In this document: positions 6,052 through 34,220 of the stretch, one piece after another
How positions within the stretch are numbered: position 1 is the stretch's first letter
Layout of the letters: the number at the start of each line of letters is the position of its first letter
DNA from: Firmicutes bacterium HGW-Firmicutes-15
Lineage (GTDB): Bacteria; Bacillota; Syntrophomonadia; Syntrophomonadales; Syntrophomonadaceae
Assembly: GCA_002840245.1 (NCBI GenBank)
Contig: PHAA01000031.1
Location: 1 to 34,220, forward strand
Direction: 5' to 3'
Length of the DNA stretch: 34,220 nt
Program-made: the position numbers and the translations under genes
The notes under the pieces: model-generated
Databases searched by the model: none
What the model saw: only the letters and a program-made list of their open reading frames with translations
Told to the model about the DNA's origin: nothing

Positions 6052-9000
6052 TCAGCCAGCCAAACTTTGTATTTCATCGCATTGAATGGACAGAACGGAT
6101 GAAATTCCCTCCTGGGGCATGGTGATACCATAAATATTTCCTCCCGCCTCAATGGTACCCTGGCGGTGAGTAATAACAATAAATTGAGTATCCCCTGACA
6201 TCCCTCTCAAAAAATCCGCAAACCTCATTAAGTTTGTCTCGTCCAATGCTGCATCAATTTCATCCAACAAACAAAAGGGAACCGATTTTAAACGCAATAG
6301 TGAGAAGATAAAAGCAATACAGGTTAAAGCCCTTTCGCCTCCGGAGAGTAAGTTCAAGGATTGACTGCGTTTACCAGGCATCTTGACCAATATCTCCACC
6401 CCTGCAGCTAGGTCGTGAGCTGATTCCATCATTAGACCAGCATCCCCACCATTAAAGATTTCCATAAACGTTCTGTTAAAACTTTCATTGGCTAACTCCA
6501 TAAACTGAGAGAAATTCTTTGTCATAATTTTTTCCGTCTCCTGGAGCAATTTTTCCAGGGATACTATGGCAATAGACAGATCCTGGGACTGCTGATGCAA
6601 GAATTCATACCTAAGACTTATTACATCGTATTCCTTTATGGCATCAATATCAACCGGGCCTAATGAATCTATCTGTTCCTTCAGGTCCTCTATGCGAGTT
6701 CGGTATTCCCGGGTCTGACGAGAGGACAAAATATCGTCATAATTTTCAGGGTTTTCATGGCTAAACTTTTCCCTGAACTGACCTTGGATCCCTTCTAACT
6801 CGGTTTCTATGCGCACCACCTTCATCTCCATAGCCCTTATCTGTTCCTGCACATTAATGATCTCCTGTTGAAGCGGTTGTGCCGCATTACGAATGACATC
6901 CAAATCTGTGCTCAATTCCTTCTCTTCATTGGAGATGGTAGCAATGCTCTCCACAATTATTTTAAGTTGCTCCCGTTTATCAACTACTTTTTCAGCAGTA
7001 CTCCCTACTCGAGAATGATTTAAATCCACCTCTTTCTGAAGTCGCTGCTGCAAAGCAAGAGCTTCCAATCCAGATTGGTGGTACGACTCCTTAACCTGTT
7101 CAAACTGGCCAATGTTTTTCTCTATGTTTTCTAATTCTTTTTGTTTCATTATAAGTTGTTCCTGATGAGATGAGAACCTTTCTTTTTTCACCTCATATTC
7201 TCGTCGGTTAATCTCTAAGTCCGCTTTTATCCTTTCTATTTCACTGGAAACCTGTTTGTTTTCTTCCCTGACGCTGCTATGGCTGTCCTGTAAACGCAAT
7301 ATCTCTTCTTCAGATTGCTTGATCATAATCTCCAATTGGGATATTTCGCTTAGATAGATTTTTGCATCAAGCGAGGAACTCTCTATGGTTACTTGGAGGC
7401 GCTGCTCTTCGTCTCGAATCATTTTCAATTGAAATTCCACTTCCACCAGCCCGTTTTTCGCTTGACTCAACTTGTCATTTACCTCTTGGATCTGCCCGGA
7501 TAATATACCCGCTTCTTCCCGGTTTTGAGATTCAGACTGGCGTAAGCTATCTAGCTGCTGCGATATATTTTTTTGCTCTCGCTTTCTCTGTAATGGGCTG
7601 GATTTAGCTTGGGCATGCATACCACCAGTCAAAGCTCCGCTGGCATTTATCAATTCTCCTTCCAGGCTGACAATCCGCAGAGGATATTGACTCCGCTTGA
7701 ATATCCGCAGTCCGCAATCCAGATCCTGAACCAATAGTACCCGCCCCAGAAGGTAAGCGATAGCCCTTTCATATTCAGGAGCATATTGCAAGAGTTCGGA
7801 GGCTAGGCCTAGAACTCCTTCCCCTGCCAGTATCTCTTCCCGTTGCCGGGCAGGAAGCTTTTGAACCCGCAAAACATCCAGAGGCAAAAATGTTGCTCTC
7901 CCCAAACGCTTTTGTTTTAAAAAATTAATTGCCATATGTGCTGAATAGGCAGTTTCCATTACTATATTTTCCATGCCTTTGCCAAGGGCAACATCAATGG
8001 CCAACTCCATTCCCGGTGGTGTCTCGATCAGATTAGCAACCAGGCCCTTCATACCCCGCAGGCTAGGCTCACCCCGGTCATAAAACTGCAAGATGGCCCT
8101 TACTCCCTCGGAAAAACCAGCATAGTTTTTCTGCAGATCCATTAGCGCCATAAGTCTATGTTCCAGCTTTATAATCTCTTGGCTCATATTCTTATAGTCT
8201 TTCTCAATACGAGCCTGGTAATCCAAGTATTGGGATTTTTGAGCCCCAACATCTGAGATAAGCCTCTCCCATTCCTCTTTATGGCTCAATTGCTGCTTTC
8301 TCAGTTCATTCAAATCTATGGCACTTTTTTCAGTAGCCCTTAGCTTCTTCTCATTCTCTTCAACCCTTATTAACAATCTCTCTCTTTTCTCTTGAGCCCG
8401 ATTAATATTATTATCCAAACTAATTATTTCGTTCTTTATTTCCGCTTCCTTATTAGCCCGTTCAAAAACCAAGTTCCGCTGCTGTTCGAAAAGTTTCTCC
8501 AGCTCGACTATGTACTGTTCCTGTTTGCTGATGTCCTGTCTAAGTTGTTCAACCTCGTATCTTCTCTCCTGGCATTGCTCTTTCTCCCGGTTAAAATCGG
8601 CAGTTTTTATCTGCAAATCTTTTTCTATATTTTCTAACATAAGGGCGTATTTTTCGCTATCAATATCTGCAGCCGTGATTCGTTCTCGGTAGTTTTTAAT
8701 TCGCTCCTGACTAAGCTTCATCTCCGACTGCATTTTATTTAATTCGGCCTCAATTTCATACTTACTTTCTTTTAATTGGTTTAAGTCGGTCCGTTTTTTT
8801 TCCAGGGAGTTCTCGACCTGCTCTTTACTAATATTTAGATTTTCCAGCCTGATATTAATCTCTCCTAGGTTATTATGCTTGAGGATCATTTCACCCTTTT
8901 TAACTTGAAGGTTATCAGCGGTTTCCCTTATTTGAGAGGCCATAACTTGCTTCTCTAAAATCTGGTACTCATCCCAAGCTGCCACATAGATAGCGGCCTT

Positions 9001-9630
9001 TTCTGCTTTGCTATGCAACTCCAACTTACGTATTTCCAGTTCGTTTAAAATATCTCCTACCCTCACTAAATCCTGGGTGCTAGAAAGAAGCCGCTGCTGT
9101 ACTTCATCCCTTTGCTGTCGATATTTTATGGTGCCAGCTGCTTCTTCCAGCATTAAGCGACGATCAAAGGCTTGCCCGTTCAAGACTCTTTCTAGCTCAC
9201 CCTGGCTTATAATAGAAAAGCCTCGTCTACCCAACCCAGTATCGGTATACAGATTCACAATATCCTTCATTCTTACCTTTGATTTATTAATATAGAATTC
9301 ACTCTCACCAGAACGAAAGATTTTACGACTAACAGTAACTTCACCATATTCCAGTGGCAGACTACCATCCGAATTATCAACTGTCATTGCGACCTGAGCC
9401 ATCCCCAGAGCCCTTTTTTTATCCGTACCGTTGAAAATTACATCCTCGTTCTTATGACCACGCAAATGGCGCACGTTAGCCTCACCCAGAACCCAACGAA
9501 TCGCATCCACAATATTGCTTTTACCACAACCATTGGGTCCTACAATAATGTTTATGCCCGGCTCAAGATTAATTTCAGTATTATCAGCAAAGGATTTAAA
9601 TCCCTTTATTTCCAAACTCTTTAAATACAC
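6052..9630 (-). CDS. smc: Chromosome segregation/condensation ATPase SMC
   Basis: A 1192-residue SMC protein, about the length of B. subtilis Smc. The N-terminal Walker A is GPNGCGKSNIVDAIRWVLGE (31-50). Long coiled coils flank a hinge near residues 510-640 containing GLVANLIE and SGALTGGMHAQ. The C-terminal half-ATPase has the signature LSGGERAL and Walker B CLLDEIDAALDE. With ScpAB it organises and separates sister origins. GTG is the best start: AGGAGG sits 8 bases upstream and the peptide begins MYLKSLEIKGFKSFAD, as in the family. The 1.05-kb region upstream separates it from the radical SAM gene, so smc probably has its own promoter near 9640-9720, though no clear -35/-10 pair stood out. 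Confidence 0.98.
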   Translation of the reverse strand: MYLKSLEIKGFKSFADNTEINLEPGINIIVGPNGCGKSNIVDAIRWVLGEANVRHLRGHKNEDVIFNGTDKKRALGMAQVAMTVDNSDGSLPLEYGEVTVSRKIFRSGESEFYINKSKVRMKDIVNLYTDTGLGRRGFSIISQGELERVLNGQAFDRRLMLEEAAGTIKYRQQRDEVQQRLLSSTQDLVRVGDILNELEIRKLELHSKAEKAAIYVAAWDEYQILEKQVMASQIRETADNLQVKKGEMILKHNNLGEINIRLENLNISKEQVENSLEKKRTDLNQLKESKYEIEAELNKMQSEMKLSQERIKNYRERITAADIDSEKYALMLENIEKDLQIKTADFNREKEQCQERRYEVEQLRQDISKQEQYIVELEKLFEQQRNLVFERANKEAEIKNEIISLDNNINRAQEKRERLLIRVEENEKKLRATEKSAIDLNELRKQQLSHKEEWERLISDVGAQKSQYLDYQARIEKDYKNMSQEIIKLEHRLMALMDLQKNYAGFSEGVRAILQFYDRGEPSLRGMKGLVANLIETPPGMELAIDVALGKGMENIVMETAYSAHMAINFLKQKRLGRATFLPLDVLRVQKLPARQREEILAGEGVLGLASELLQYAPEYERAIAYLLGRVLLVQDLDCGLRIFKRSQYPLRIVSLEGELINASGALTGGMHAQAKSSPLQRKREQKNISQQLDSLRQSESQNREEAGILSGQIQEVNDKLSQAKNGLVEVEFQLKMIRDEEQRLQVTIESSSLDAKIYLSEISQLEIMIKQSEEEILRLQDSHSSVREENKQVSSEIERIKADLEINRREYEVKKERFSSHQEQLIMKQKELENIEKNIGQFEQVKESYHQSGLEALALQQRLQKEVDLNHSRVGSTAEKVVDKREQLKIIVESIATISNEEKELSTDLDVIRNAAQPLQQEIINVQEQIRAMEMKVVRIETELEGIQGQFREKFSHENPENYDDILSSRQTREYRTRIEDLKEQIDSLGPVDIDAIKEYDVISLRYEFLHQQSQDLSIAIVSLEKLLQETEKIMTKNFSQFMELANESFNRTFMEIFNGGDAGLMMESAHDLAAGVEILVKMPGKRSQSLNLLSGGERALTCIAFIFSLLRLKSVPFCLLDEIDAALDETNLMRFADFLRGMSGDTQFIVITHRQGTIEAGGNIYGITMPQEGISSVLSIQCDEIQSLAG

Positions 9631-9817
9631 CAGTTTTCCTCCTGCTATTCCATGAGCACATAATAGCCTGTGCTAGCCAATCAAATTCAGCCCTCTTGGT
9701 CTTTTACATTAATATTTGACAAAGGATAAAGCAAAACCTTCTTTTTGGTAATATTTTACACATACATTTTGCTAACTCTATTACGAAGATGATTAATTCA
9801 TTTTTCGCAGTTGACTG

Positions 9818-10091
9818 ATTATGCGCAGCAAACTTTTGAATCACAGAGATATAAGGGGACCGGGTGTTAGATGTTGAATGTAATCTGGGGCTAACAGATT
9901 CAGTAATTCTGCTTGCTCCCATCTCCGGAGGCTCGTTCTACCATTTGCTTGCCGAGCGAGCTTCAGGGGCACCCTGTCAAATCTCCCATCCGTGGTCGAT
10001 GACAGGCTCGCGACGTCCTGTCGCTCGTCCCCTTACGCTCTCCCGTCTTCGCAGGGTAGAACGGCCTCCTCCGCTAGGTCGCCAGCATAAT
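9818..10091 (+). repeat. Structured repeat element, copy A (274 bp, inverted partner at 10315-10586)
   Basis: The element is bounded by ATTATGC (9818-9824) and GCATAAT (10085-10091). It aligns over its whole length, and about 25 bp beyond each end, with the reverse complement of copy B. Its core 9927-10069 (143 nt) is closed by GGAGGC..GTTCTACC pairing with GGTAGAAC..GCCTCC. Inside are GCTTGC/GCGAGC (about 9947-9961), CCTGTCA/TGACAGG (9973-10006) around a loop nearly invariant between copies, and GCGAC-GTCCT-GTCGC (10010-10024). A one-base indel in the shared loop breaks any common reading frame, so constraint is on DNA or RNA rather than protein. No tail of T residues follows it. It could be a MITE-like element or a structured RNA; I do not recognise the family. 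Confidence 0.85.
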
Positions 10092-10225
10092 TACTAAATC
10101 TGTCGCGCTATAAAATCTACAAATACTTACTGGAAAGGGACGGAGTTGCTGGTATGCCCACTTCCCCTGTTATATAATAGTACCTTAAATGAAAACTATT
10201 TTGGCCAAGGAAGTAAGCAGGGATT

Positions 10226-10255
10226 GGGGACGGTTCTTATGTCGTTCCTATCCCC
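10226..10255. other. Short hairpin-like motif GGGGACGGTTCTT...TATCCCC in the spacer between the element copies
   Basis: The spacer 10092-10314 between the two inverted elements contains no supportable gene. It holds GGGGACGGTTCTTATG followed by TCCTATCCCC, an imperfect hairpin. The same core TGGGGACGGTTCTTG recurs on the minus strand near 31004-31022 beside a truncated gene. Such short dispersed motifs recur in Clostridia genomes as far as I recall. Their mobility is unknown. Confidence 0.4.
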
Positions 10256-10314
10256 ATGGATTAAATCATAACGGTTATCGTCAAGAAGTTCAGATATACA
10301 GGACAAATTCAGGA

Positions 10315-10586
10315 ATTATGCAGGCGACGTTGCGCAGGAGGCCGTGCTGTCCTGCGAAGAAAGATGAGTGGAGGGGGACGAGGAACAGGATGTTCCGAGC
10401 CTGTCATCGACCACGGATGGGAGATTGACAGGGCAGCCCCTGGAACTCATCTGGCAAGCAGCTGACAGCTCGAGCCTCCGGAGTCCGGAGCAGGCAGAAT
10501 TGCTGAATTTGTCCACCCAGCTGCCGCTCAAGAGCAAACCCCGTTTCCCTTATATCTCAGTACTGTAGAAGGTTGCTGCGCATAAT
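10315..10586 (-). repeat. Structured repeat element, copy B (272 bp, inverted relative to copy A)
   Basis: Read on the minus strand this copy begins ATTATGC (10586-10580) and ends GCATAAT (10321-10315), like copy A. The 143-nt core is 10337-10479, exactly the same length as in copy A. Its outer helix keeps GGAGGC/GCCTCC but uses GCTGTC/GACAGC where copy A has CTACC/GGTAG, with three compensatory pair changes. The small hairpin at 10382-10396 is GGAAC-ATCCT-GTTCC on the minus strand, with two compensatory changes against copy A. The CCTGTCA/TGACAGG hairpin (10400-10432) and its loop ATCTCCCATCCGTGGTCGA are unchanged. The two copies differ at many other positions, so this is old divergence with retained structure. 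Confidence 0.85.
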
Positions 10587-10632
10587 CCATTAACTGCTAC
10601 ATTTGAATAATTAGTACTGTTTAAGAAAAAGC

Positions 10633-10680: not shown

Positions 10681-11784
10681 TTATTGCTTACGTATTTTGA
10701 TGAACTCCTCTCGCGAGAGCAGTAATTGAGCTTCCTCAACATCGGTAGCACTAACCCCTACCCAATTACGATCCAAAACCTGGTCTAATTTCAACTTTAT
10801 AGAGTCCAATGCCAATTCTCGCTTTAATTCCTGTAGATTCTTTTGCTTCTTGCCTGTCATTTTGGATATATCCCGCGAATTAACATGCAAGTTAATCTCA
10901 GCACGATGCCCAAAGCTCTCAAAGTATTGCACTATTGCAAATAACGCCTGTTGTTTGAATATCTCCTGATCCACCAGCTCACCAAAACTCGGATGAAAAG
11001 GCCCTGCTTGTATAACCCCATCTCGGCGCAGTTCCTCACCGGGATACAGGCCCATGCGGATGACTCTAATTTTTTCCTCTTGAAAAAGCAAAAGCATATC
11101 CGCGCAGGTGGAAACTGCCTCTTCCAAGCTCAAGGGCTCATATTCTCCCCTCTGCCACATTATATCCAAAACAGTACCAGCAATAACCAAGGTAGGGTAT
11201 ATTCTGACTGCCTGCGGTTGCAGGGCTATTGTCTGACGAGCTGTTTGCATATCCATTGCGTAGCTATCCTGCGGAAGTCCTATCATGAGCTGTATGCCCA
11301 AGTCAAATTGTCTTTCCCTAATTAGGTGAGAACTTTTGAAAACATCCTCCGGCCTATAATTCCGGGCTGATGCTTGCAAAACCCTATCACTCAGAGATTG
11401 CACTCCCAGTTCAATCATCTTCACCCCATAATTGGCCAGCATATCCAAAATAGGTCCATCAATGCAGTCTGGTCGGGTCGAAATTCTAATGCTCTGCACT
11501 CTTTCCTGCTGAAGGTACGGTTGAACCGCATCCAGATAGTCCTCCTGCAGTTTCCTGTCCACGGCTGTAAAATTACCCCCAAAAAATGCCACTTCTACAT
11601 GCGCTTCACAGGGAATAGTCTGCAGATATTCTTCAATAGTATAAATCATCTGCTTAATGTCGGGTGTTCCCTGTTGCGCAGTTATCTTTTTCTGATCACA
11701 GTATATACAATCATATGGACAGCCCAAGTGAGGAATAAAAATGGGGATATTATAATGCTTCATTTCCCCACTAAACCCACTCAA
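10681..11784 (-). CDS. Radical SAM protein, Elp3-like without acetyltransferase domain
   Basis: A 367-residue radical SAM enzyme. The [4Fe-4S] ligands are Cys22, Cys26 and Cys29 in GCPYDCIYCDQKK, followed by the SAM-binding segment FFGGNFT (63-69) and the TRPD strand near residue 103. It resembles the radical SAM half of Elp3 (COG1243-type) but ends without a GNAT domain. This short form commonly sits between rnc and smc in Clostridia; its substrate is unknown to me and may be tRNA. The predicted start is TTG overlapping the rnc stop (TTGA), with a weak GGAAAG site. An internal ATG at 11763 just before the conserved segment is an alternative start. Confidence 0.82.
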   Translation of the reverse strand: MSGFSGEMKHYNIPIFIPHLGCPYDCIYCDQKKITAQQGTPDIKQMIYTIEEYLQTIPCEAHVEVAFFGGNFTAVDRKLQEDYLDAVQPYLQQERVQSIRISTRPDCIDGPILDMLANYGVKMIELGVQSLSDRVLQASARNYRPEDVFKSSHLIRERQFDLGIQLMIGLPQDSYAMDMQTARQTIALQPQAVRIYPTLVIAGTVLDIMWQRGEYEPLSLEEAVSTCADMLLLFQEEKIRVIRMGLYPGEELRRDGVIQAGPFHPSFGELVDQEIFKQQALFAIVQYFESFGHRAEINLHVNSRDISKMTGKKQKNLQELKRELALDSIKLKLDQVLDRNWVGVSATDVEEAQLLLSREEFIKIRKQ

Positions 11785-24257: not shown

Positions 24258-27020
24258 TTAGTCCTCTCTCTCCATATGGTGCTCTCGCCAATGGCTCGCC
24301 AAATAATCCTCAGTAGCCTTATAACGAACCCTTACCTCAGTATGATGGGTGAATGACTCCCCAGGTAGATTTATTGTTGCCGTCGTACCTGAAACCGTAA
24401 GATTAGCCCAGCTACTACTCAAGAAATGATGTCCTGGCATATCCACGCAATATTCCAGACTATCACCATCGTATTCCGGATTATCAGAGTCTGGCAGCAC
24501 AGTCAGGGTTGCTTCTGAGGGATCTTCGCTGGAGAATTTGGCCTCACTGAAATGTGGGGCATTACGATGATACAGATGTATTAATTCGTGCATATTTTGG
24601 GGATTGTCTATCTCACGCAGCATTACTATTCCTGGGGAGAAAGTAAGTCCCAAGGTATTGGGGGAACCGGCTGTTGCCCACTCTCCCCCGCCGGGCAAAT
24701 GGTATTGCATCTGTTCGGTGGTTCCGGTTAGCTTGCCATCGGCCACATTTATACTTACCCCTGACCAGTTCACCACTGCCTCTTCATCTCCACACAGATT
24801 GTCTGTGGCTAGCGAAGGCAATGCGGCAGAGGTAGCCTTCACACGGACGATTATAAATTCAGCCCCGGTGGTGTCAACAGTAGTACTAATAATAGGTGTC
24901 CAGGTCCCCCCCGTAATACGCTGGTATTCCAGTGTACCATCAGTGGCAATATCAGCTCCAGCAAAAGTGGACTCGCTCAGACTTATGTTCGGTGGATTGG
25001 CGGCTGGAGATATAGATCCTATCTGTTCAGGTTCGCTGGGTAAGGTAGTGGCTGTTGCTTTAGCCCGCACTTCCACCGGTCCGGCTACAAAGCTAACTAC
25101 CGGAGCACTTGTGTAATCCCCTCCGCTTAGACTGTATTCATAGGTGTCTCCTAAACCATATATTTCTCCAGCCGCAACATCAAAAGTTACTTCGCTGTTC
25201 GGTACAGCCGGTTGATTAATTTGGTCCAAATATTGATTGTTAGAATTATTACCCGCTTCTCTCACCCATAATACATCCCCGGGCGCAAAGCTGACAGAAG
25301 TATTTGTATCAGTGCAAATATCCCAATTCCCATCTGTTCCATTAGTAGAATCCAGGCTGTATTCCATTGCGGTTGTGGTGTTGGTAATTAGTTCACTAGC
25401 CACATTAATACTCACGCTGGCAAGATCGAGATCCGTTGATGTGGTAGCATCACTATCTCCACTACCTGCACCACCACTTCCACTTGAGGTAACTGGTGAA
25501 ACCGGAGGCGTTATAGTTCCGGTGTTCAGCAAGGCTTGATTTATAACATCCAGGGTTGACTGCACTGCCCCCGGAGCCTGCGTCAGCAAGACCTCCTGGT
25601 TTAAATCCATCTGTTGGGCTGTAGTTTGAAGCCAGCTATTGGCCTGTTGGAACAGGGCCGCCAATTCCCGGCCTAATACCGTGGTGGATGGAGGCGGAGT
25701 ATTAGCACCGCTTATACCTGTTTGTTGGTTCCCATTCAGCGGAACGGTTACTCCTCCATTGGTTACTTCAGCATCTCCTGTTAAGCAACCTACCGTTGAT
25801 TGGCCGCTGGGACTTACGGTTATCCCGACAAATGTTCCTCTTATGGACGCAACCCCCCAGGGCATGTCTACTTTGATCTTAACTTTCTTTTGTTGGGATG
25901 CTACATACCAGGGAAGCTCTTGGCCTTCTGCTGCTAAGAGCTTCCAACCGTCCAGGCTGGCTATCAATTGACTGCCTATTTGGTATACCTGTCCGGTGGT
26001 CTTATTCTTTTCCGACCCGCTGCTTTGTTTGGTGGCTAAGCCGCCTAACATGGTTCCTTGTTTAAGCTTAATATCTAACCATTCTACAGCGGTTCCTTCA
26101 CTGCCATCGGTCTTGATGTATTTTCTACCTTTAGATTCAGCTACTGTTATCTGGGTGTTTTCCTCCAAGAGCATACTGCTGCCATCAGGATAGTTTAGTT
26201 CTGCGCTGCTATTAACTCCGGTTTTGATTATGTCGCCTGTTTTTACTATGGTTTCAGTCTTTACTTCCATAACACTCAGGCTCCCGGCAGACTGTATAGT
26301 TACGCTCCCTTTTCGAGTTATCAGTATACCTTCCAGTGGGGTTGCATATAGTCCAGGATCCTGGGTAAGTAGTACACCTAAAGCATGGGCTAAGCTAATT
26401 CTGTTGAAAGGGGAATCGGGTAGATATTGTTTACTGTCTGCACTTAGTCCTACCATACCGGAAGCTAATCCTACGGCTACAGAGGGGGCAGCCCAGTGGT
26501 TAGAATCAATATCAGTCAGAGCTGGCAGCTTAGTTCCCGTAAGGGTTTGTTGAGAAAGACGCAGAATGAGGCTTATAGCCTGAGCGCGGGTAAGTTGTTC
26601 ATCAGGGTGGTAACTGCCATCGGGCATACCGCTGATGTATTTGGCTTGGGCGGCCTTTGTTATGTAAGCTTTGGCCCAGTGATTATCACTCACATCACTG
26701 AAGGGATTTGTTAAAGTTGGGTCTACGGATAGCCCGGCGGCTTTGACGATTACGGTGGCTGCTTGAGCTCGGGTTAATCCTTCTTCCGGATGATATCCTC
26801 CATCGGGATAGCCTGTGATAATTCCGCGTCCAACCAGGTAGTTTATATATATGGCATTGACATCGGTGGAGGCTACATCGGAAAAATTGGATTTCACAGC
26901 TTTCGGGGCTGCCGTCTCCGCTGTCTGTGCAGGGTTGACTAAAGTCAAAAGAGCACCACATAAAATTATGGTAAGAATAAGTCCATACCAGGATACTCTG
27001 CTTGTTCGCAAGAGATTCAT
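24258..27020 (-). CDS. S-layer homology (SLH) protein with FecR domain, paralogue 1
   Basis: A 920-residue exported protein. A hydrophobic signal segment (about 12-30) is followed by three SLH repeats (about 45-95, 107-155, 168-218, with YPDGGYHPEEGLTRAQAA and MPDGSYHPDEQLTRAQA). SLH domains bind pyruvylated secondary cell-wall polymer. A FecR-like domain (about 255-435, GDIIKTGVNSSAELNYPDGS ... WGVASIRGTFVGIT) and a Ser/Gly-rich linker come next. The C-terminal half has Ig-like repeats of the SINVA..L..TT..MEYSLD type and ends in a charged tail. The N-terminal half is closely similar to the protein at 31394-34220; the C-terminal half is not. Start: AAAGGCGGGATAAA before ATG. Confidence 0.9.
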   Translation of the reverse strand: MNLLRTSRVSWYGLILTIILCGALLTLVNPAQTAETAAPKAVKSNFSDVASTDVNAIYINYLVGRGIITGYPDGGYHPEEGLTRAQAATVIVKAAGLSVDPTLTNPFSDVSDNHWAKAYITKAAQAKYISGMPDGSYHPDEQLTRAQAISLILRLSQQTLTGTKLPALTDIDSNHWAAPSVAVGLASGMVGLSADSKQYLPDSPFNRISLAHALGVLLTQDPGLYATPLEGILITRKGSVTIQSAGSLSVMEVKTETIVKTGDIIKTGVNSSAELNYPDGSSMLLEENTQITVAESKGRKYIKTDGSEGTAVEWLDIKLKQGTMLGGLATKQSSGSEKNKTTGQVYQIGSQLIASLDGWKLLAAEGQELPWYVASQQKKVKIKVDMPWGVASIRGTFVGITVSPSGQSTVGCLTGDAEVTNGGVTVPLNGNQQTGISGANTPPPSTTVLGRELAALFQQANSWLQTTAQQMDLNQEVLLTQAPGAVQSTLDVINQALLNTGTITPPVSPVTSSGSGGAGSGDSDATTSTDLDLASVSINVASELITNTTTAMEYSLDSTNGTDGNWDICTDTNTSVSFAPGDVLWVREAGNNSNNQYLDQINQPAVPNSEVTFDVAAGEIYGLGDTYEYSLSGGDYTSAPVVSFVAGPVEVRAKATATTLPSEPEQIGSISPAANPPNISLSESTFAGADIATDGTLEYQRITGGTWTPIISTTVDTTGAEFIIVRVKATSAALPSLATDNLCGDEEAVVNWSGVSINVADGKLTGTTEQMQYHLPGGGEWATAGSPNTLGLTFSPGIVMLREIDNPQNMHELIHLYHRNAPHFSEAKFSSEDPSEATLTVLPDSDNPEYDGDSLEYCVDMPGHHFLSSSWANLTVSGTTATINLPGESFTHHTEVRVRYKATEDYLASHWREHHMERED

Positions 27021-31393: not shown

Positions 31394-34220
31394 CTAACTA
31401 TAGATATTAATACTATAAAAAAACTTGGTAACTCCGTCCTCGGCTGTAACTTCCAGTTTATCGTTGTAACCAATAAGGTCGTTATCAGACAATCTAGGAT
31501 TATCAGAGCTATCCAGTATCTGATAGCTCTGCATGGAGCCATCGATAGAATTAATATGGCTTATCAGATCGCCAACTGTTGTACCAGGGTAAACATACAA
31601 ATAGTTGCCTTCCAAATCCATTTCAAAATCGGGGTCGTATATAATTTCAATATCTGTTCTGAAACTAATGCCTCTTAACTGCATAACCGTCATTTTTCCG
31701 CCCTGACTGCCGTCCCGGAAGGCTAAATAGATAGTGCCAGTTTCCTTATCTATAGCAAGCGAAGGGCAACTGTCACCAGTAGTAGTAGCGTGTACCGGGC
31801 CTCCCAGCCATTTATACCCCTGACCGGCTATATAAACGAGCTTCATAACTGAAGCCCGGCCTGAGGCGTCATCAATATAGGCAAGGATGGGACCATCTTC
31901 TCCAACGCACAAGGAGTTATAAGTGCCAGCAGGCAAACCGCTGCCAACCTCCGCCCAGCTGCTGCCATTAAATTTCTGGACATGTATCTGGTTGCTGCTG
32001 GTTTCCGTGTAAGCCAGATAGGGCTTTTGATATTCATTACTATTCATGGAAAGGTAATCGGCTGGGCCGCTGGAGATACTGGCAGCGCCTACGGCTGACC
32101 AAACATCATTATAAACATACTCCATCACTGTAGCTCTACCAGAATAATTGCTATCACTAAAGGCTATATATGGAGCTGTCCCATCCAAATTATCCAGGTA
32201 GAAAGAAAGGTCATTCTGACCAATGGAAATACCCGGAACGCCAAGACCTACCCATTCATCGTCACAAAAAGAATATACCTTTACGTCATTAATACTATTG
32301 CGATAAGCAATATAAGGATAACCAGAACAGTCTAGGGCAAGGTGAGTATCTGCAACCACATCATTCGAAAATTCAGTAAATTCTAATGATTGCCAATTAT
32401 CTGGATATACATATTGCATAACCGTTGCTTTGTCCTCATTACTGCCGTCTTTGAATGCCAGGTAGGTCTCTGAGTCTATTGCCAGACTGGGTGTGTAGGC
32501 TGAATCGGTTTCTGGCAAAGCACTCCCCAAAGTTTGCCAATCTCCATTGAAATATGCCCTCACCACAGCCTTTCCGCTATCACTATCCTTATAGGCAACA
32601 TAAGGGTTACCATCATGTATCACCAGGGAAGTACTATCCACTGGATTGCTGGTAAAACCTGCATTGCCAACCGGTACCCAGCCAGATACTTGAACCGTGA
32701 CGGGGTTGGTGACACCATCTATGGATATTACGAGTTCAAAGATTCCGGGGAAATTAGCCGGGATGTAAATATCAGCACTCCCATTTACAAAGGTAAATGG
32801 AAGATAGAGGATTTGAATCCCAAGTGTCGAAACGGTAACGTATTTCTGACCAGATAGAAGGATACCATTAATATCTTTAGCATTGTTTACCACCAAATAA
32901 TCGCTGGGACCAGAACCACCACCTATGGTAAACCCGGATAGGTCTGTCGTAGAGGGACCATCGGAATCAGTATTATTGTTGTTATTAGAATTATTTGAGC
33001 TAGATTCTGCCACTGTGCCTAACGCACCAGTTATTGCCCCTAAAGTTGAACCAGCAGGTGGTGCAGGAGGTGCCGACGGGGGTGTTTGCCCAGGTACTGG
33101 ACCTGGGGGCGGCGGCGTTGCTGCCGGCTGATTTTGATCCATTAATTGCGCTGTTGCCTGGAGCCAGCTATTGGCCTGGAGGAACAGTGCTGCCGATTCC
33201 TGGCCTAATACAGCACTGGGTGGAGGCGGATTATTGGCACCATTTATACCTGTTTGCTGGTTGCCACTCAGCGGAACGGTTACTCCACCATTGGTTACTT
33301 CGGCGTCGCCCATTAAGCAGCCAACTGTTGATTGGCCGTTGGGGCTTACGGTTATCACAACAAAGGTTCCACGTACGGCAGCAACACCCCAGGGCATATC
33401 TACCTGCATCTTGACTTTCTTTTGTTGGGATGCTACATACCAAGGTGGCTGCTCGCCTTCTGCTGCTAACAGTTCCCATCCGTCCAAGCTGGCAATTAAC
33501 TGACTGCCCACCTGGTATACCTGTCCGGTAGTTTTGTTGGTTACTGGGTTTTCGGTCTGGGTTGTTTCATGTTTGGTGGCTAAGCCACCTAACATGGTGC
33601 CTTGTTTGAGTTTTATATCTAGCCAGTCTAGAGCAGTTCCTTCACTGCCATCTATTTTGATATATTTTCGACCTTGGGATTCGACTACGGTTATCTGGGT
33701 GTTTTCTTTTAAGAGCATGCTGCTGCCATCGGGATAGTTTAGTTCAGCGCTGCTCTTGGCTCCGGTTTTGATTATGTCGCCTGCTTTAACTGTGGTTGCA
33801 GTCTTTGCTTCTACAGCTTTCTTACTTCCGGCAGACTGTATAGTTACGCTTCCTTCCAGAGTTATTAGTATACCTTCCAAAGAGGTAGCATAAAGTCCGG
33901 GGTCCTGTGTGAGTAGAATACCCAAAGCATGGGCTAAACTGATTCGGGTAAAGGGGGTATCTGGTAGATATTGTTTGCCGTCTGTACTGAGTCCAACCAT
34001 GCCGGATGCTATTCCTACGGCAACCGATGGAGCAGCCCAGTGGGTAGAATCGATATCGGTCAAGGTTGTGGGCAGCTTAGCACCGCCAAGGGGCTGTTTA
34101 GAAAGGCGCAAGATAAGGCTTATGGCCTGAGCGCGGGTAAGTTTTTCATCGGGGCGGTAGCTGCCATCTGGCATGCCAGATAGATATCCTGATTTAGAAG
34201 CGGTTGCTATGTAAGCTTTC
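31394..34220 (-). CDS. SLH-FecR surface protein, paralogue 2, with C-terminal seven-repeat beta-propeller-like domain (5' end cut by window edge)
   Basis: At least 942 codons are open to the window edge; the start lies beyond 34220, where KAYIATASKSGYLSGMPDGSY matches the second SLH repeat of paralogue 1. Two SLH repeats remain, then a FecR-like domain nearly the same as in paralogue 1, a Pro-rich and an Asn/Ser-rich linker, and an Ig-like stretch. About seven repeats of roughly 45 residues follow, each with a pattern such as PYVAYKDSDSGKAVVRAYF then W..LGS, suggesting a seven-bladed propeller. The end is a small domain finishing EVTAEDGVTKFFYSINIYS. The protein should be wall-anchored and exposed; its ligand is unknown. 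Confidence 0.9.
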   Translation of the reverse strand, partial: KAYIATASKSGYLSGMPDGSYRPDEKLTRAQAISLILRLSKQPLGGAKLPTTLTDIDSTHWAAPSVAVGIASGMVGLSTDGKQYLPDTPFTRISLAHALGILLTQDPGLYATSLEGILITLEGSVTIQSAGSKKAVEAKTATTVKAGDIIKTGAKSSAELNYPDGSSMLLKENTQITVVESQGRKYIKIDGSEGTALDWLDIKLKQGTMLGGLATKHETTQTENPVTNKTTGQVYQVGSQLIASLDGWELLAAEGEQPPWYVASQQKKVKMQVDMPWGVAAVRGTFVVITVSPNGQSTVGCLMGDAEVTNGGVTVPLSGNQQTGINGANNPPPPSAVLGQESAALFLQANSWLQATAQLMDQNQPAATPPPPGPVPGQTPPSAPPAPPAGSTLGAITGALGTVAESSSNNSNNNNNTDSDGPSTTDLSGFTIGGGSGPSDYLVVNNAKDINGILLSGQKYVTVSTLGIQILYLPFTFVNGSADIYIPANFPGIFELVISIDGVTNPVTVQVSGWVPVGNAGFTSNPVDSTSLVIHDGNPYVAYKDSDSGKAVVRAYFNGDWQTLGSALPETDSAYTPSLAIDSETYLAFKDGSNEDKATVMQYVYPDNWQSLEFTEFSNDVVADTHLALDCSGYPYIAYRNSINDVKVYSFCDDEWVGLGVPGISIGQNDLSFYLDNLDGTAPYIAFSDSNYSGRATVMEYVYNDVWSAVGAASISSGPADYLSMNSNEYQKPYLAYTETSSNQIHVQKFNGSSWAEVGSGLPAGTYNSLCVGEDGPILAYIDDASGRASVMKLVYIAGQGYKWLGGPVHATTTGDSCPSLAIDKETGTIYLAFRDGSQGGKMTVMQLRGISFRTDIEIIYDPDFEMDLEGNYLYVYPGTTVGDLISHINSIDGSMQSYQILDSSDNPRLSDNDLIGYNDKLEVTAEDGVTKFFYSINIYS

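Follow-up and report, generated by a model that had tools for sequence, protein, structure and literature searches.

The gap between smc and a radical SAM gene in the window (the whole 34,220-nt stretch analysed here) raises the question of what fills it, and whether that sequence matters as DNA or as RNA. A sequence-only reading had placed an inverted, diverged pair of elements in this gap, and the pair is indeed there, as a long imperfect inverted repeat in two layers (Table 1). The inner arms (9894-10104 and 10302-10512) are 78% complementary and the arms of the outer layer 77%. The proposed elements of 274 and 272 bp stand as two inverted elements but not in their extent, the true units being two elements of about 212 bp within a unit of about 0.81 kb. 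Similarly, the motifs ATTATGC and GCATAAT proposed as their bounds are present, at 9818/10091 and 10315/10586, but mix two different repeats: ATTATGC at 9818 lies in the unit's outer terminal repeat (TTCGCAGTTGACTGATTATGCGCAGCA), and the motif pair joins this outer repeat to the inner end of an element. The GGA-bearing strand, described below, is the minus strand for element A and the plus strand for element B, so the elements face outward.

Table 1. Features of the smc-radical SAM gap, in window coordinates. R1, covariance model of the core; R2, the same with loops masked.
Feature	Position	Strand	Details
smc	6052-9630	-	left border of gap
radical SAM gene	10681-11784	-	right border of gap; Pfam PF04055/PF16199
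whole inverted-repeat unit (~0.81 kb)	about 9796..10608	.	outer repeat, A, spacer, B, outer repeat; ends +/- some bases
left outer terminal inverted repeat	9796..9864	+	contains TTCGCAGTTGACTGATTATGCGCAGCA at 9804-9830
element A (~212 bp)	9893..10104	-	own inverted ends 10085-10104 and 9893-9912, GACAGATTTAGTAATTATGC / GCAGAATTACTGAATCTGTT
conserved core of A	9926..10071	-	R2 match 97.5 bits; R1 match too
hairpin P6 of A	9983..9997	-	GACCACGGATGGGAG, loop CACGGATG
hairpin P5 of A	10010..10024	-	GCGACAGGACGTCGC, loop AGGAC
spacer between A and B	10105..10300	.	–
element B (~212 bp)	10301..10514	+	own inverted ends 10301-10321 and 10494-10514, GGACAAATTCAGGAATTATGC / GCAGAATTGCTGAATTTGTCC
conserved core of B	10335..10480	+	R2 match 94.5 bits; R1 match too
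hairpin P5 of B	10382..10396	+	GGAACAGGATGTTCC, loop GGA/AGGAT
hairpin P6 of B	10409..10423	+	GACCACGGATGGGAG, loop CACGGATG
right outer terminal inverted repeat	10540..10608	-	contains AGCAGTTAATGGATTATGCGCAGCA at 10574-10598

Elsewhere in the window, a molybdenum/tungsten cofactor (Moco) riboswitch (RF01055, 728-843, minus strand, 60.6 bits) lies upstream of an NADH dehydrogenase/hydrogenase-type 24-kDa-like gene (83-529). Two large minus-strand ORFs (24258-27020 and 31394-34174) have, judging by their translations, a long similar N-terminal part in common, in which a FecR-like part comes after S-layer-like repeats; between the two ORFs lie genes resembling those for sugar transferases and O-antigen ligases.

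The elements belong to a large dispersed family. There are 9 matches in the window's genome and 10 in the sister genome G006, and the same outward-facing pair recurs on contigs C49 and C31 of G000 and C91, C114 and C124 of G006. Covariance model R1 detected the core (a long stem, a three-way junction and two small hairpins) in 34 of 63 genomes within the order. At the level of the phylum it did so in 74 of 398 sampled genomes, representing 53 of 271 genera; such family counts are lower bounds, since the loop-masked model R2 misses a branch with a GC-rich stem in two genomes (G326 and G251). This branch, seen at nine loci, retains two GGA loops although its outer stem is longer and rich in GC and its helices differ considerably. 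The radical SAM-smc gap itself is just 75-179 bp in six relatives, and in the closest relative, G001, it measures 494 bp and holds no element copy. At eleven loci from other genera of the family the gap is about 1.1-1.4 kb, where another gene or insertion is probably present.

The family also bears the marks of transposition. In a Syntrophomonas wolfei genome (G026, which we take to be the Goettingen strain) and in a second genus (G023), the core lies inside a MITE of about 270 bp ending in GATTCCACTGCAAAAA; S. wolfei has about 27 copies in all. Target duplications of 5-7 bp flank 12 of 20 of these copies, against 5 of 380 mismatched flanks. With its terminal shell and target duplications, the core there is the cargo of transposing DNA, so that "transposon-like repeat" and "structured RNA" are both apt descriptions. 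At least two types of shell carry it. Like a MITE, the element has terminal inverted repeats and many copies and lacks an ORF; in the open reading frame list, no ORF of at least 80 aa starts inside the window unit. Some copies have been invaded or extended in turn: two in G000 (on C31 and C49) hold a further inserted repeat (GGGGACATTCCTCC..GGAGGTGTGTCCCC), and several S. wolfei-type copies have an insertion of about 50 nt between hairpins P5 and P6.

The fold is conserved as a lineage-specific outer stem, helices P2-P4 and the three-way junction with P5 and P6. The compensatory changes first noted between A and B were rightly called; the small hairpin GCGAC/GTCGC (10010-10024, minus strand) becomes GGAAC/GTTCC (10382-10396, plus strand) with its pairs retained. 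Structure exceeds chance in single folds (z-scores -3.2 to -4.3), and RNAalifold on 28 copies gave 39 pairs, 27 of them with two-sided changes. Covariation among homologues, which the sequence-only reading had put forward as the check on selection for a folded hairpin, strongly supports such selection. Because R1 rewards loop letters, R2 was built with both loops set to N, and it matched 24 of 26 chosen genomes. An alignment of 60 R2 matches has 462 two-sided pair changes, against 146 +/- 9 when shuffled, and 91.5% pairing, against 42-46% when the alignment is slid, although both values are biased in favour of the structure, to which this alignment was fitted. In all 58 copies compared, folding is better for the GGA strand than for its complement, and by shuffled z-score this holds in 21 of 29. 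Wobble asymmetry gives no clear separation of RNA from DNA, with 19 G-U against 13 A-C mismatches at strand-neutral pairs, or 30 against 19 when collapsed by genome.

What stays fixed while the stems change are the two hairpin loops. P5 stems include GCGAC, GGAAC, GCGGC, GCCCC, GGGAC, GTCAC, GAAAC, GCAGC and others, yet both loops read A(N)GGAN, closed by C-G or U-G, with P6 mostly CANGGANG or CAGGANG. Among the 60 fetched R2 matches, P5 has a loop in 59, of which 56 contain GGA by row count, and P6 has GGA in 57 of 60 (58 and 58 by a coarser script count), where about 5-6% would be expected in random loops of equal size. The masked loop columns are among the most conserved of the R2 alignment. 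The distance from GGA to GGA is 23-26 nt in all 55 copies measured, and 24 nt in 38 of them.

These are features of CsrA targets. For CsrA, SELEX yielded the consensus RUACARGGAUGU, whose GGA sits in a hairpin loop, and the dimer bridges sites 10-63 nt apart (PMC7652899), a span that includes the spacing found here. ANGGAN in hairpin loops is recognised by RsmN and its relatives (PMC3791407), and the Campylobacter flaA mRNA titrates CsrA through two adjacent GGA hexaloops 21 nt apart (PMC4894983). Copies of the family show what a putative CsrA site calls for, namely GGA in short loops, a preceding A, a C-G closing pair and two sites at bridging distance. At the level of sequence, the element reproduces the two-GGA-loop geometry of CsrA targets. 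Repeats at three loci in Gammaproteobacteria MAGs carry one or more tandem GCGACAGGANGTCGC hairpins without the two-hairpin junction and are possibly a separate family of CsrA-site repeats.

The element had been called unrecognised. This holds for the window copies, as an Rfam search of the window returned no family for A or B, only the Moco riboswitch and a chance miRNA match, and the copies did not match RF01731 (TwoAYGGAY) up to E = 10; it does not hold for the family, whose members are distant relatives of that RNA. An S. wolfei copy scores 33.0 bits and a G023 copy 29.5 bits, below the RF01731 gathering score of 43 bits. The alignment of the S. wolfei copy spans the entire model, and its two loops fall in register. 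Pseudomonas sp. 8Z turned up as well when genome contigs were scanned for an exact 21-base pattern. R1 matches occur in 8 of 146 Pseudomonadales genomes, some with about 20 copies, and five copies from four of these genomes pass the RF01731 threshold at 43-54 bits. The hallmark of TwoAYGGAY, two GGA-loop hairpins on one junction, is present, and since the loops are ANGGAN or AGGAN the strict AYGGAY letters hold in part only. RF01731 and CsrB share one Rfam clan, CL00106. A CsrB/RsmZ-type sRNA was considered and set aside, there being two loops per element and no promoter-like site in a promoter/terminator scan, which found a single terminator-like site, outside the window unit.

Weinberg et al. 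(2010, PMC2864571) recorded TwoAYGGAY from Gammaproteobacteria, Clostridiales and the human gut, and Gardner and Eldai (2015, PMC4333381) suggested that it serves Clostridia as an sRNA that binds CsrA, so the CsrA idea is not new. The present analysis adds a divergent and much wider family, its mobility, with target duplications, a test with masked loops, the spacing of the sites and the co-occurrence with csrA. We found no description of CsrA-binding repeats as mobile in the open PMC literature, an absence that counts for little. The window elements are probably a divergent mobile branch of TwoAYGGAY-like RNA that, by its loops, would bind CsrA.

The distribution of csrA is consistent with this. 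With kinship ignored, csrA is encoded by 69 of 74 element-bearing genomes and 222 of 324 other genomes of the phylum (Fisher p = 2e-6); when the order is taken by itself, the association is weak (19, 2, 9, 5; p = 0.07). In one genus (g22), three genomes (G068, G069, G027) have both element and csrA and two (G066, G067) have neither. The element is also present without detected csrA in G023, with 19 copies, in G041 and in five genomes of the phylum sample. The window's genome encodes an intact, ordinary CsrA.

We propose, with a probability of roughly 0.58, that both elements are divergent versions of a TwoAYGGAY-like RNA, carried as MITE-like cargo, whose GGA loops when transcribed would bind the CsrA dimer and tether or titrate it. 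Each element would fold as a long stem leading to a three-way junction and two short hairpins with A(N)GGAN loops. We infer that the GGA strand is transcribed, probably by read-through, and that the two loops, about 24 nt apart, could each engage a separate face of the CsrA dimer. In the window unit, where A and B face outward, transcription of either strand would yield one sense copy. If a single transcript spans the whole unit, however, A and B are predicted to pair with each other and bury all GGA sites. Complementarity between A and B is broken by the compensations within each of them, an argument for separate folding of each element at least some of the time. Genes around the copies show a weak orientation bias (34 against 20 in tandem contexts), too weak to serve as proof of transcription.

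The main competitor, appreciably less probable, is that the repeat acts at the DNA level only, its hairpins maintained by template switching during palindrome repair or by the machinery of transposition, with the GGA loops read as single-stranded DNA or merely inherited and no function as RNA. Terminal repeats and target duplications are what such an element would have, and the weak orientation bias, the similar numbers of G-U and A-C mismatches and the copies in genomes without csrA all sit comfortably with it. Palindrome repair, however, does not explain why, in many families and two phyla, the two loops and the distance between them hold constant as the stems are replaced. Transposases that read hairpins in single-stranded DNA (HUH/Y1) fit poorly with target duplications and paired terminal repeats, and the better folding of the GGA strand and the csrA association also speak against a DNA-only role.

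Alternatively, the fold may act as RNA without CsrA, for instance as a stabiliser of mRNA 3' ends, an RNase III substrate or an anti-Shine-Dalgarno lure. Copies are mostly intergenic and often between co-directional genes, the fold is very stable, a whole-unit transcript would form a long duplex, and P5 loops such as AGGAG resemble a Shine-Dalgarno sequence. We consider this unlikely, as A(N)GGAN with a free N fits CsrA/RsmE better than Shine-Dalgarno, the fixed AGGAGG is not needed, and the two loops keep a fixed distance. Far less probable still is that the element derives, as a remnant, from a protein-coding transposon or from a ribozyme, intron or guide RNA of a known kind. The element does sit within terminal-repeat units, but no ORF of at least 80 aa starts in the window unit, its changes preserve pairs instead of giving a codon signal, and neither the window nor its relatives gave an Rfam match to HEARO, introns or other families. 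A protein-coding origin and a HEARO/omega RNA or intron were rejected on these grounds, and no larger autonomous copy with a coding part including the core was seen.

Beyond this locus, CsrA capture by the family would have wider consequences. It is tempting to speculate that these selfish repeats, in many Bacillota families and in Pseudomonadales, are two-site CsrA decoys whose copy number tunes Csr/Rsm, and that they are the missing CsrA-sequestering RNAs of Clostridia, an extension we hold only tentatively and think rather doubtful. If it is true, every transposition would raise the decoy dose, and the Csr/Rsm network would be tuned by copy number. CsrB-type RNA antagonists have previously been identified in Gammaproteobacteria only (PMC4333381; see also PMC4894983). 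CsrA is widespread in Bacillota, and a high-copy, mobile, covarying two-loop family makes this antagonist gap testable in cultured species such as S. wolfei. Our searches also indicate that, in Bacillota, most members of the family escape the present Rfam model.

The element combines traits of several known systems. Structured MITEs and intergenic repeats such as bcr1, BOX, ERIC and Correia are likewise short, non-coding and intergenic, with terminal inverted repeats and the ability to fold as RNA; here, in contrast, an internal covarying core with loops like protein-binding sites is common to repeats of differing termini. With TwoAYGGAY it shares the junction of stems, the two GGA-loop hairpins and an occurrence in Clostridia and Gammaproteobacteria, whereas the window copies escape that model, the loops are broader, and the family is much larger and travels as cargo of mobile repeats with target duplications. 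CsrB/CsrC and RsmX/Y/Z resemble it in the GGA hairpin loops that would capture CsrA and in their clan, but they gather many sites, where each copy here has two and is dispersed among many others in the genome, with no promoter of its own seen and no known Gac/BarA link. The flaA and hag mRNA leaders (PMC4894983, PMC7652899) offer a similar geometry, with a pair of neighbouring GGA loops spaced for bridging, 21 nt apart in flaA and 23-26 nt here; unlike these gene leaders, however, the element is mobile intergenic DNA.
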